From assembly GCA_021793215.1 (NCBI GenBank), contig JAJYTE010000006.1, positions 1-64,000 on the forward strand: a stretch of 64,000 bases of DNA, in the 5' to 3' direction. The notes under the pieces were generated by a model. It did no database searches and had not been told where the DNA came from. It worked only from the letters and a program-made list of their open reading frames with translations. Each line of letters begins with the position of its first letter. The first letter of the stretch is position 1. Of this stretch, positions 43,614-48,333 are shown piece by piece. Made by a program: the position numbers and the translations under genes. Source of the DNA: Bacillota bacterium. Its GTDB lineage: Bacteria; Bacillota; Sulfobacillia; JAJZYS01; JAJYTV01.

Positions 43614-44087
43614 GTGGCGAACCTGACGCTCTACACGCTGCACGGCTGACCGTACTGCGCCGTCGTGCGCGACCGGCTCGGAGAGCTGGGACTGGAGTAC
43701 CGCTACATCGAGGTTCCGCCGCGCCGTGCGGACCGCCACGCGGTGCGCGAGGTGTCGCAGCAGGAGACGGTCCCGGTGCTCGTGATCGAGGAAGACGGAG
43801 AACGCACCGTCCTGTCGGACGAGAACGACATCCTCGCGTTCCTCGACGAGCGCTTCGCCGCGCGTTCGACCGACGACACGGCCGCACCGTGGGACGAAGC
43901 GGCCACTCGCCAGCTCGAGGAAGTCGTGGCGGGTGGCGATGCGCGGGCGCAGGCGCTCTTGGCGCTGGCGGAACGCGCGCGGGCCTCCGGCGAGATCGAT
44001 CGCGCGAACTGCCTGCATGCCGCCGCGTGGTACCTGCGGGACGGGCAGCACTGGGCGGCGAGGCAACTCGAGAGCCTTCGAGGGTAA
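43614..44087 (+). CDS. Glutaredoxin-like selenoprotein with helical C-terminal extension (Sec at TGA 43647-43649)
   Basis: A 157-residue frame starts at a GTG (43614) behind aaggggga. Codon 12 is TGA, giving the active site H-G-U-P-Y-C: Sec12 and Cys15 in place of the C-P-Y-C of glutaredoxins. The fold continues with strand EYRYIEVPP, the cis-proline strand TVPVLVIEEDG and the glutathione-site-like LSDENDILAFLDE. After residue 85 a charged helical region of about 70 residues follows, unusual for glutaredoxin and loosely GST-like. A hairpin at 43659-43677 lies downstream of the TGA as a SECIS candidate. Without readthrough the gene would be called from GTG 43665 and lose its active site. Confidence 0.88.
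43659..43677 (+). promoter_or_regulatory. Candidate bacterial SECIS hairpin (first Sec-glutaredoxin)
   Basis: GCCGTCG pairs with CGACCGGC as 7 bp with one bulged C around the loop UGCG; the loop lies 17-20 nt after the UGA. A bulge near the loop is also a feature of known bacterial SECIS elements. Confidence 0.45.
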
Positions 44088-45087: not shown

Positions 45088-45138
45088 ACTATAGTTGAAC
45101 GGAAGGATTCGGGAAAGGCGAGCGGCGTGTGGTAGAAT
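45088..45138. promoter_or_regulatory. Divergent promoter region (aldolase and 45174 operon)
   Basis: A minus-strand -10 box TATAGT at 45088-45093 precedes the aldolase TTG, and a plus-strand -10-like TAGAAT at 45133-45138 precedes the 45174 gene. The -35 boxes are weak for both. Both boxes lie inside frames that would be coding under the longer start choices, supporting the shorter starts. Confidence 0.4.
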
Positions 45139-45173
45139 CGGCTGAAGAAGCGCCGACGGAGGGGGGATACGCG

Positions 45174-45674
45174 TTGCCGAGGCTCAACAGGGATCTCAAG
45201 GCGGAACTGAAGACGACGCTGCCGCTGGCCTTCGCACGTCCCGAGGATCCCCTGCTCGGAGCTACGCTACTGGGCATCGTGGTGCGAGATGGGGAAGCGA
45301 AGGTGGACGATGCGGTCCTGCATGGCCGCAGCGACCTGGAGCGCGGTATCCGGTTCACGGCCCAGCGGCCCGAGGAGGTCACGCCGACCGAGCGCTGGGG
45401 CGTGGTGTTCATCGCGATGAAGAGCAGTCCGGCGGGCCTCTACTACCAGGGCGCCACGGCGGTGGAACTGTTGATCGACCGCCCCGGGCGGCGCGGCTTC
45501 CGCGACATCGTGCGATCTGTGAACCGGATGTCCGATGCGGTCTCCGGGGAAGTGGCGCTCGACGCGCTATCCGCAGCGGATCGTCAGGCGGTCGTGCGCC
45601 TTCTGGAGGAGCGGGGGCGCGACGTCTGGGAGCGGACGCCGCTCGAGCGGCGCCAAGCGATGGTGGGCGCGTGA
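45174..45674 (+). CDS. Hypothetical protein coupled to a Sec-glutaredoxin
   Basis: This 166-residue protein has no recognised domain. It is soluble and charged, with an N-terminal basic helix (LPRLNRDLKAELK), a central beta-rich part (ATLLGIVVRDGE, WGVVFIAMKSS, GATAVELLIDRPG) and a helical C-terminus. The TTG at 45174 has ggagggggg 7 nt upstream and is preferred over the GTG at 45129. Its TGA overlaps the GTG of the Sec-glutaredoxin (GTGA), so the two are translationally coupled and may act together. Function unknown. Confidence 0.7.
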   Translation: MPRLNRDLKAELKTTLPLAFARPEDPLLGATLLGIVVRDGEAKVDDAVLHGRSDLERGIRFTAQRPEEVTPTERWGVVFIAMKSSPAGLYYQGATAVELLIDRPGRRGFRDIVRSVNRMSDAVSGEVALDALSAADRQAVVRLLEERGRDVWERTPLERRQAMVGA

Positions 45675-45919
45675 CGCACGAGGTCACCGTCTACACGAGC
45701 GGCCCCGGCTGACACGAGTGCCAGACGGCGAAGGAGTTCCTTCGCGCGAACCGCATCGCCTTCACGGAGAAGCTGATCACCGAACCTGTCAACCGGGCGG
45801 AACTCGAGGCGCTCGGCTCGCGGGCTGTGCCGACGCTCGTGATCGACGGCAGGACCTACATCGGATTCGGCATCCATGAGGCGATGGTCAGAAAAGCGCT
45901 CGGCGTGGCGAACGACTGA
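45671..45919 (+). CDS. Small glutaredoxin-like selenoprotein (Sec at TGA 45710-45712)
   Basis: This 82-residue protein starts at a GTG overlapping the upstream stop. Codon 14 is TGA, giving S-G-P-G-U-H-E-C-Q-T-A-K: Sec14 and Cys17 occupy the C-x-x-C positions of a glutaredoxin/NrdH fold. Then follow helix KEFLRANRIAF, strand TEKLIT, the cis-proline strand AVPTLVIDGRTYIGF and a final helix. Bacterial SECIS logic fits: a perfect 7-bp hairpin at 45728-45745 has its loop AGUU 23-26 nt past the UGA. It is probably a thiol/selenol oxidoreductase. A conventional gene finder would miss it, because no start follows the TGA without losing the active site. Confidence 0.9.
45728..45745 (+). promoter_or_regulatory. 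Candidate bacterial SECIS hairpin (small Sec-glutaredoxin)
   Basis: GCGAAGG pairs perfectly with CCTTCGC around the tetraloop AGUU. It starts 15 nt after the UGA and lies in the coding region. This is the strongest of the three SECIS candidates. Confidence 0.55.
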
Positions 45920-45945: not shown

Positions 45946-45967
45946 GGCGGGGAGACGACTCCCCGCC
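45946..45967 (+). terminator. Terminator-like hairpin after the Sec-glutaredoxin
   Basis: A 9-bp GC-rich stem (45946-45954 and 45959-45967) with loop ACGA lies 26 nt after the stop. No T-run follows. Confidence 0.4.
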
Positions 45968-45996
45968 CCTTCGTTCGCCTGTGAGGAGCTTGCGCA

Positions 45997-47199
45997 TTGC
46001 GTGCCACAGAGCTTCACCCGCGCCAGGCCGTCGTCGCGCCATCGACCTCGCGCGACCCGGCTCCGCGCAACGTGGGAATCCTGTCCGCCACCACGGCGAT
46101 GATCGTCGTGGCGCTGTACACATGGTACCCAGTACTGCCGGTGGTGCTGCAGCGTCGCGGCGCCGACCGGTTCGAGGTCAGTGCGATCTACACGCTGATG
46201 GGCTTCGCCTCCTCCGCGCTGCAGATCTACGGCGGTCGTTTGGCAGACCGCCACGGCCGAAAACCGGTACTGGCTGTACCTACGTTCGTCGCGGCGGCGC
46301 TCTACGGCGTCGCCTTCCTCAGCACGTCGTGGCCGGTGCTCGCGGCCGCCCTCGTCATCCTGAACCTCACAAGCGCCATTCAGAGCCCGTCGTTCGTCGC
46401 GATCACCGCCGAGTCCGTGCGGGCCGAACGGCGCGCGCAGGCATTCTCGACATTTCAGTTCGCCTCCAGCTTCGCGACGCTCCTCGGTCCAGCCCTTGGG
46501 GCCGCCCTCCTGCCGTCGGTGGACGTCAAGTGGCTGATCGCCCTCACGGCGATCGCGAGCCTTGGGGCCGCCTGCCTGCGCCTTCTGGCGCTGCGGGAGG
46601 TGCACGTCGGCGAGGTACCGCGCCAGCGCATGCCCATCAAGGAGGCGTTCTCCGGGCGGATGCGCCACCTGACGCTTGCCTCTACCGCCTTCCTGCTCGT
46701 CGCCTCGCTGACGGTGAACGGCCCATTCATCGCGCTCTACGCCCACAACAGCGGTGGCCTTCCGACGGCGCAGGTCAACCTGCTGTACGCTGTCGCATGG
46801 CTGCCCGCCGTGATGCTCTCGTTCTGGCTCGGGCGGCGCATCTCCGCCCTGGGCTCGTCTCGCGCCCTCGCGGTCGGCGTGGCTGGCCACCTCGCAGTCC
46901 TCGGCGTATGGCTTGCGCTGCGCGGCTTCGTGCCGATGGCGCTCCCGCTGATGGCCTCGTTCCTCTTCTACCAGCTGGCGGTGATCGCGTTCGGCACGCT
47001 GCGCATCGAGACGGTCGCTCCGGAGAAGGCGGGCGCGGCGCTCGGCGTGATCGGGACGGTCTCGGGGCTGGCGGCGGCGCTGGGTCCTGTGGTCGCGGGG
47101 GCGGTGGCCGGCGTGCTCGGCCCGCTGGCGGCCTTCGGCCTCGCGGGCGTGGCTGGCGTCTGGACGATTCTCTCTCTGCGCAACCTCAGACGCGCATGA
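45997..47199 (+). CDS. Major facilitator superfamily transporter
   Basis: This 400-residue protein has about twelve hydrophobic segments in two halves and the MFS loop motif GGRLADRHGRKPVL between segments 2 and 3. The TTG start has gaggag upstream. It is a drug/metabolite exporter-like MFS protein; the substrate is unknown. Its stop overlaps the glycosylase ATG. Confidence 0.88.
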   Translation: MRATELHPRQAVVAPSTSRDPAPRNVGILSATTAMIVVALYTWYPVLPVVLQRRGADRFEVSAIYTLMGFASSALQIYGGRLADRHGRKPVLAVPTFVAAALYGVAFLSTSWPVLAAALVILNLTSAIQSPSFVAITAESVRAERRAQAFSTFQFASSFATLLGPALGAALLPSVDVKWLIALTAIASLGAACLRLLALREVHVGEVPRQRMPIKEAFSGRMRHLTLASTAFLLVASLTVNGPFIALYAHNSGGLPTAQVNLLYAVAWLPAVMLSFWLGRRISALGSSRALAVGVAGHLAVLGVWLALRGFVPMALPLMASFLFYQLAVIAFGTLRIETVAPEKAGAALGVIGTVSGLAAALGPVVAGAVAGVLGPLAAFGLAGVAGVWTILSLRNLRRA

Positions 47200-47912
47200 C
47201 GGCGCGGGATCTCCTCGCGCGCCTCGCGCCCCTCTACCCGTCCGAGGGCTGGTGGCCAAGCGCCTCGCCCTTTGAGACGGCCATTGGCGCGATCCTCGTG
47301 CAGGGAGTCGCGTGGCGAGGCGCCGCGAACGCGGTGGCGGGCCTGCGTGACGCGGGACTCCTGAGCGCGGCAGCCCTCGCGGCAGCCGATCCCTCGCAGA
47401 TCTCTGAGGCCATCCGTCCCGCGCTCTACCACCACCAGAAGAGCGGTTACCTGCGGTCCTTCGCGACGTTCGCCTTGTCCATCGGCGCGGTCGAACGCCT
47501 CGCGGGCATGCCGCCGAAGCAGCAGATGGAAGCGCTCCTCGGCGTGCGAGGGATCGGGCCGGAGACGGCCCAGGCGATCATCGTCTACGCCCTCGGCGGC
47601 GCCGAACCGGTCGTAGACGCCTACGCCCGGCGCCTCTTCGTACGGACGGGCGCGTCGCCAAACAGCACACCCGCGGCAGTCGAGGAGGCCATGCGCACCG
47701 CGATCGGCGTCGATCCGGCGCGCGCAAGGGCGCTTCACGCCGCGGTGGTGGAGCACGCCCGCACCGTCTGCCGCAGGGCACCGCGCTGCTCGGCCTGCCC
47801 CCTCGCGATGGGATGTCCCAAGACTCTTGGAGAAACTGGTGTAGGTAGGGGGTGGCGCGTTGTCTCTCGCGCAGGGAGTGCGGCCGAAGAAGGCGAAGCA
47901 GGAGACGGATGA
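47196..47912 (+). CDS. HhH-GPD DNA glycosylase (COG2231/MagIII-like)
   Basis: This 238-residue protein has the helix-hairpin-helix LLGVRGIGPETAQAII, the catalytic aspartate in PVVDAYARRLF, and a C-terminal Fe-S-type cysteine loop C-x5-C-x2-C-x5-C (CRRAPRCSACPLAMGC). The lysine of true endonuclease III (GVGRKTA) is a glutamate here, so it should be a monofunctional glycosylase, closest in pattern to 3-methyladenine glycosylase III. Its last 53 nt overlap the next gene. Confidence 0.8.
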   Translation: MTARDLLARLAPLYPSEGWWPSASPFETAIGAILVQGVAWRGAANAVAGLRDAGLLSAAALAAADPSQISEAIRPALYHHQKSGYLRSFATFALSIGAVERLAGMPPKQQMEALLGVRGIGPETAQAIIVYALGGAEPVVDAYARRLFVRTGASPNSTPAAVEEAMRTAIGVDPARARALHAAVVEHARTVCRRAPRCSACPLAMGCPKTLGETGVGRGWRVVSRAGSAAEEGEAGDG

Positions 47913-48333
47913 GGAGCGTCGCCTGCGCCTTCTGAAGGAGCAGGTGGTGCGCGAACTCGGCCTCTGGGATAGACTGCTCGCGGAGGGTTGGGGCGGCCTC
48001 AGCGCCAAGGAGTCCGGCAGAGTCGGGGGGATCGTCGCCCGGCGGCTGCGCGAGGGGGGAGACGTCGCGGATCCAGGGGTGAAGGGCGTGCACGCGATCC
48101 TGCGCACCAAGCCCGATTGCAGCCTCTGCGAGAAGGCGCAGGCAGCGCTCGAGCGCATCGCGCGGGACGTCGCCCTGAAGGTGCAGCGCGTAGAGGTGGA
48201 CGCGAGCGATCCCGATGCGATGCGCGTTCCGATCGTCGAGATCGAGGGCGTGGAGGTGCAGACGGGCAAGGTATCCGAGTTTCGGCTGCGCAACTGGCTC
48301 AAGGAAAGGGGCTTCTTGGATGCGACTCGCTGA
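47860..48333 (+). CDS. Glutaredoxin-like (DUF836-type) protein with N-terminal helical extension
   Basis: The 157-residue product has about 70 charged helical residues at the N-terminus, then a thioredoxin-fold domain with the dithiol CSLCEKAQAALERI and the cis-proline strand MRVPIVEIEGVEV. This resembles DUF836 glutaredoxin-like proteins. The TTG start has aggggg upstream. It uses ordinary cysteines, unlike the two Sec-glutaredoxins nearby. Role unknown. Confidence 0.8.
   Translation: MSLAQGVRPKKAKQETDEERRLRLLKEQVVRELGLWDRLLAEGWGGLSAKESGRVGGIVARRLREGGDVADPGVKGVHAILRTKPDCSLCEKAQAALERIARDVALKVQRVEVDASDPDAMRVPIVEIEGVEVQTGKVSEFRLRNWLKERGFLDATR

Follow-up and report, generated by a model that had tools for sequence, protein, structure and literature searches.

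The analyzed DNA (here called the window, a stretch of 64,000 nucleotides from a draft assembly with 87 contigs and a 2.74-Mb genome) carries a small glutaredoxin-like gene flanked by a ywhD-family gene and an MFS transporter gene (Table 1). A preliminary description had proposed an 82-residue frame with an in-frame TGA in a GUHEC motif, and the sequence agrees with it. The product reads VTHEVTVYTSGPGUHECQTAKEFLRANRIAFTEKLITEPVNRAELEALGSRAVPTLVIDGRTYIGFGIHEAMVRKALGVAND, and its homology to glutaredoxins continues past the in-frame TGA, at which standard gene calling halts. Besides, the TGA stop codon of ywhD (45672 to 45674) overlaps the GTG start codon of the redoxin gene, as GTGA.

Table 1. 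Features of the locus and related genes (positions are those of the window unless preceded by a contig handle)
Feature	Position	Strand	Details
First Sec protein of the window	43623-44087	+	Glutaredoxin/GST_N-like domain, LHGUPYC
ywhD-family gene, upstream	45129-45674	+	PF08741, 84.7 bits
Predicted Sec-containing glutaredoxin-like gene	45671-45919	+	GTG start, 82 aa, TGA stop at 45917-45919
Predicted UGA selenocysteine codon	45710-45712	+	Residue 14, G-P-G-U-H-E-C; every aligned homologue has TGA or a Cys codon here
Resolving cysteine codon (C17 of UxxC)	45719-45721	+	Invariant across homologue alignments
Predicted SECIS-type hairpin	45728-45745	+	GCGAAGG-AGUU-CCUUCGC, encoding AKEFLR; conservation, covariation
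cis-Proline codon (V-P54-T)	45830-45832	+	Homologue alignment and model
GC-rich hairpin, leader of the MFS gene	45947-45992	+	Guanidine-II-like, 19.7 bits (threshold 32)
MFS transporter gene, downstream (context)	45997-47199	+	PF07690
Thioredoxin-fold protein	47860-48333	+	Glutaredoxin-like domain at the C terminus (DUF836, PF05768), containing Cys
Candidate SelB-binding segment of the window gene			GCGAAGGAGUUCCUUCGC (counterpart in Cys homologue: L081)
selD copies	C79:50489-51406 (L072); C69:9179-10102 (L073)		One adjoins selA

The predicted protein matched the Pfam glutaredoxin family (PF00462) with 45.1 bits, above the gathering cut-off of 22.9. After a single orthologue, the next best matches in genomes of the class and phylum were mostly 32 to 49% identical, and at least 23 genes of the phylum beyond the orthologue pair encode Sec (UxxC) homologues. 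Many of these homologues have a single TGA at the first position of UxxC, in motifs such as TSTUPWC, TPTUGSC, QPGUADC, QPGUHAC, QPGUGAC, TPTUPHC, APGUAGC, and TPAUPAC. The UGA of the window gene therefore aligns with Cys or Sec of its homologues and is followed by a conserved frame, the pattern by which bacterial selenoproteins are recognized. In a tree of 69 rows and 76 columns, many forks of which are open, the window protein and its orthologue grouped together (support 100/99) inside an xG[U/C]xxC branch (90/86), where Sec and Cys forms are mixed. The well-supported branches force at least five Sec/Cys switches, and PGUADC/PGCADC and PGUHAC/PGCHSC are close Sec/Cys pairs. The window pair alone has an additional residue separating strand 1 from Sec (Y-T-S-G-x-G-U), and in this pair Sec is followed by His or Asn, the residue being Pro, Gly, or Ala in most relatives.

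An AlphaFold2 model made with a 32-row alignment (pLDDT 94.3, pTM 0.84) confidently predicts a thioredoxin fold with the order beta-alpha-beta-alpha-beta-beta-alpha, and Pro-54 and the helices are intact in it, as the preliminary description had anticipated. The best solved structure, both by sequence (E value of 7e-10) and by fold, was cGrx1 (TM scores of 0.83/0.91, rmsd of 1.3, and 43% identity in the structure alignment with PDB 7c10), the selenocysteine glutaredoxin-1 of Clostridium (Alkaliphilus) oremlandii. It is described as a native selenoprotein whose motif is U(or C)PXC (PDB 7c10/7c12; PMC7642778), and was solved with Cys in place of Sec (7c10). The window protein has the fold and the UxxC of such a Sec dithiol glutaredoxin, and shares with cGrx1 a Sec in the attacking position, a similar length, and the KEFL helix after the active site. 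On the other hand, U(C)PHC of cGrx1 is preceded by T-S-N-T, whereas the window protein reads S-G-P-G-U-H-E-C, so that Sec is preceded by an additional residue and followed by His where cGrx1 has Pro.

The best NCBIfam match was YruB (TIGR02196; 44.8 bits, E value of 1e-11), a family that takes in the "Distant Grx-like protein 1" with UxxT (PMC9312934). The score was half of what is needed (cut-off 88.55), whereas three Sec homologues with the same predicted SECIS (L111, L112, and L118) passed the cut-off. The UXX-star model (NF041212) gave 35.2 bits against a cut-off of 66, and UXX-star family 2 (NF041211) gave 25.3 bits against a cut-off of 100, although the protein contains GxGU, which is listed as a motif of family 2 (PMC13188914). 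Besides, the selenoprotein glutaredoxins in selenoproteome lists (PF00462, UxxC; PMC13188914) agree with the window protein in Pfam family and UxxC, but not in the letters GUHEC/GUNEC. The suggestion of a distinct small selenoprotein family, new in kind, is thus not supported: the protein falls near YruB and UXX-star, many genes of the phylum encode UxxC Sec members, the GxGU motif had been described, and cGrx1 had been solved and studied. By sequence comparison, we place it as a predicted UxxC Sec-redoxin near the YruB/UXX-star glutaredoxins, under the cut-offs of those families, and its GUHEC/GUNEC site with the extra residue as a genus-level active-site variant, known so far from two genomes.

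Classical glutathione-dependent glutaredoxins have TVP and a C-terminal GG motif as parts of the glutathione site. In the window protein, VPT is present and GF (G65-F66) replaces GG, as in nearly all homologues, which sets it apart from the classical type. We infer that the protein is likely a selenol/thiol disulfide reductase: Sec14 would attack a substrate disulfide or an oxidized thiol, and Cys17 would resolve the mixed selenenyl-sulfide. As electron donor, thioredoxin reductase or another thiol system would be likelier than glutathione, because GG is replaced by GF as in YruB/NrdH-like redoxins. Bacillithiol is an unlikely partner, since a search for BshC found none. The proposed partner of cGrx1 is a Sec-containing MsrA; the MsrA of the window's genome has no TGA and occurs also in same-genus genomes without the redoxin gene, which lends no support to it as a Sec partner. 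It is rather improbable that GxGUHEC belongs to a selenoprotein that binds a metal or metalloid and does not reduce disulfides. The Sec of UXX-star proteins has been suggested to be a metal ligand or to bind unknown substrates (PMC13188914), and the His beside Sec and the extra residue do alter the site of the window protein. However, all aligned homologues keep the resolving Cys of UxxC, the closest relative with a solved structure (cGrx1) acts as a thiol-disulfide oxidoreductase, and the neighboring genes (ywhD, MFS, and aldolase) give no clear sign of metal resistance.

A scan of genome contigs yielded one close orthologue, in the same-genus MAG Bacillota bacterium DX1.bin42 (L023, identical with G003/L025), and in 154 genomes from the class and 399 from the phylum, the GUHEC/GUNEC form occurred just in these two. 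The DX1.bin42 protein is 75 to 76% identical to the window protein and has the TGA at the same codon, in GAGUNEC; its gene overlaps the upstream ywhD as TAATG and is followed by the same MFS gene. Past the TGA, the two genes differ at 13, 6, and 26 sites at codon positions 1, 2, and 3, respectively, with a dN/dS of 0.17 (NG86). Absence of Cys or Sec homologues and loss of the downstream frame had been named as grounds for giving up the reading, and the opposite was found. The Sec-glutaredoxin of the preliminary description is now backed by the Pfam match, by relatives that keep the TGA, and by the frame downstream of it.

The window hairpin (7 bp, AGUU loop) stands exactly 15 nt past the TGA, with 22 nt between UGA and loop, and conforms to the bSECIS model (PMC13188914) in stem, loop, position of the G, spacing, and energy. 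For the 48 nt past the TGA, the folding energy is -18.7 kcal/mol (z of -3.7 versus synonymous recodings). An Rfam search of the window from 40 to 50 kb gave no SECIS match. When all 1,082 TGAs on both strands of the window were considered, 12 (about 1%) were followed by a hairpin placed as in a bSECIS, with 7 perfect base pairs and a G loop, 2 of them at exactly +16. By itself, the hairpin is within chance expectation in the window, and single-sequence folding alone is indecisive; it goes beyond chance because it is kept in relatives and because glutaredoxin homology runs across the TGA.

Covariation bears out the earlier reading of this perfect hairpin as a SECIS. In 21 aligned Sec genes, the stem starts from nt 16 past the TGA with 6 or 7 of 7 pairs kept and a loop of AGUU, AGUUU, AGUAU, or CGUGG, whereas none of 51 Cys homologues keeps the 7 pairs. 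Two-sided changes were found at stem positions 1 (GC/AU), 2 (CG/UA/AU), 4 (AU/GC), 5 (AU/GC/CG), 6 (AU/GC), and 7 (GC/AU). In a gap-free alignment of 16 sequences, 96% of the helix cells were paired and 5 of 8 pairs had two-sided changes, and the covariation score was 0.344, compared with 0.123 for shuffles (0 of 500 as high) and no more than 0.122 when the partners were slid. Sec and Cys genes also differed in stem length (Mann-Whitney P of 1e-6) and in z-score against synonymous recodings (P of 5e-5), both values being inflated by relatedness, as the pooled statistics draw on related sequences. The z-scores of Sec homologues spread widely, and the fold energy of the DX1.bin42 orthologue is unremarkable (z of -0.92). 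Some Sec homologues depart from the pattern: the stem is weaker in three (L035, L095, and L115), and four (L103, L104, L112, and L120) have a single U-C mismatch. Between the window gene and DX1.bin42, all six hairpin codons are identical (all 18 nt), compared with 26 of 45 other codons for the same residue. We thus regard the window hairpin as a well-supported predicted SECIS.

Phylum-wide (loci L024 to L122), the hairpin overlies the codons for [AV]KE[FY]L[RS] in two codon registers. An R after KEFL goes with an 18-nt hairpin with a tetraloop and an S with a 19-nt hairpin, so that the RNA structure is kept although in the 3' arm the codon register moves by one. RNA constraint therefore seems to mould the helix sequence of the Sec redoxins. 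A fixed-spacing SECIS hairpin of this kind is common to glutaredoxin-type Sec genes across much of the phylum and missing from their Cys counterparts; its presence is an easy mark by which to annotate these genes, which also offer a ready system for probing the covariation between SelB and hairpin.

These comparisons bear on whether the gene is a pseudogene or a sequencing error, that is, a Cys glutaredoxin in which TGC or TGT had turned into TGA and only a 13-residue peptide is made. The gene is patchy within the genus and the assembly is a draft, but a separately assembled genome of a different species has the same TGA and shows purifying selection past it, TGA occupies the same column in at least 23 further genes of the phylum, and the hairpin is kept by covariation in TGA genes only. 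The conserved frame and the predicted SECIS largely refute this possibility, to which we give very little credence.

The window's genome encodes a tRNA-Sec with a UCA anticodon, SelB (above cut-off), SelA, which the three remaining genomes of the genus have as well, and two SelD proteins above cut-off. Each selD gene has one in-frame TGA, in S-G-U-x-C-K, followed by a stem-loop. With SelA, SelB, SelD, and tRNA-Sec all predicted, the organism is taken to use selenocysteine. That the UGA encodes another amino acid (Cys or Trp), or is passed by general read-through, is most improbable even though Cys homologues exist at that position, given the full Sec machinery with its UCA anticodon, the use of UGA as an ordinary stop in neighboring genes such as ywhD, and the conserved bSECIS-type hairpin. 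The UGA most likely functions as a Sec codon.

From the computed reading frame, the conservation of the TGA, the covariation of the SECIS, the Sec machinery, and the predicted fold, we consider it highly probable that the product of the locus is a small redoxin belonging to the glutaredoxin superfamily, with a catalytic Sec at UGA-14, hairpin-directed insertion, and disulfide chemistry. From these data we infer that Sec is incorporated in the cell, as well as the coupling of translation, the chemistry, the donor, and the substrate. Translation of the redoxin is probably coupled to that of ywhD, because its start overlaps the upstream stop codon, and the AGUU hairpin (bSECIS) would hold SelB with Sec-tRNA-Sec at UGA-14, leading to insertion of Sec. 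The window gene is thus very probably a genuine Sec-glutaredoxin-like gene among the known UxxC Sec-redoxins, with a predicted SECIS. It seems unlikely that GxGU[HN]EC marks a genus-specific subfamily whose redox potential has changed or whose substrate is new; a link with YwhD is conceivable in that case because of the apparent translational coupling.

The order ywhD-redoxin-MFS was found in two genomes of the genus, and ywhD-MFS without the redoxin in the two others (G001 and G002) and in genomes of the sister genus. Since G001 and G002 still have SelA, the redoxin gene is dispensable in SelA-bearing relatives, and either one lineage acquired it or others have lost it. Between ywhD and MFS, an 18-nt stretch of G002 has 16 matches to the 3' part of the redoxin gene (P of about 0.003 by shuffling), a hint of gene loss that is no more than suggestive, and no such remnant was found in G001. 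Viral contigs contained no relative of the window protein, and plasmids only glutaredoxins about 40% identical to it.

Elsewhere in the window, the GC-rich hairpin of the MFS leader is probably not a Guanidine-II riboswitch, as its score is under the threshold and G001 does not preserve its ACGA loop. The preliminary description had counted the redoxin as the second Sec-glutaredoxin of the window, and this agrees with our data: the first also has a TGA kept in relatives. That one in-frame TGA is found in G001 and G003 of the same genus and in three order-level relatives (G012 to G014), and orthologues in the sister genus mostly have no internal stop, likely making a Sec/Cys pair across genera. 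A 7-bp hairpin with a GGA loop begins 24 nt past the TGA of this gene.
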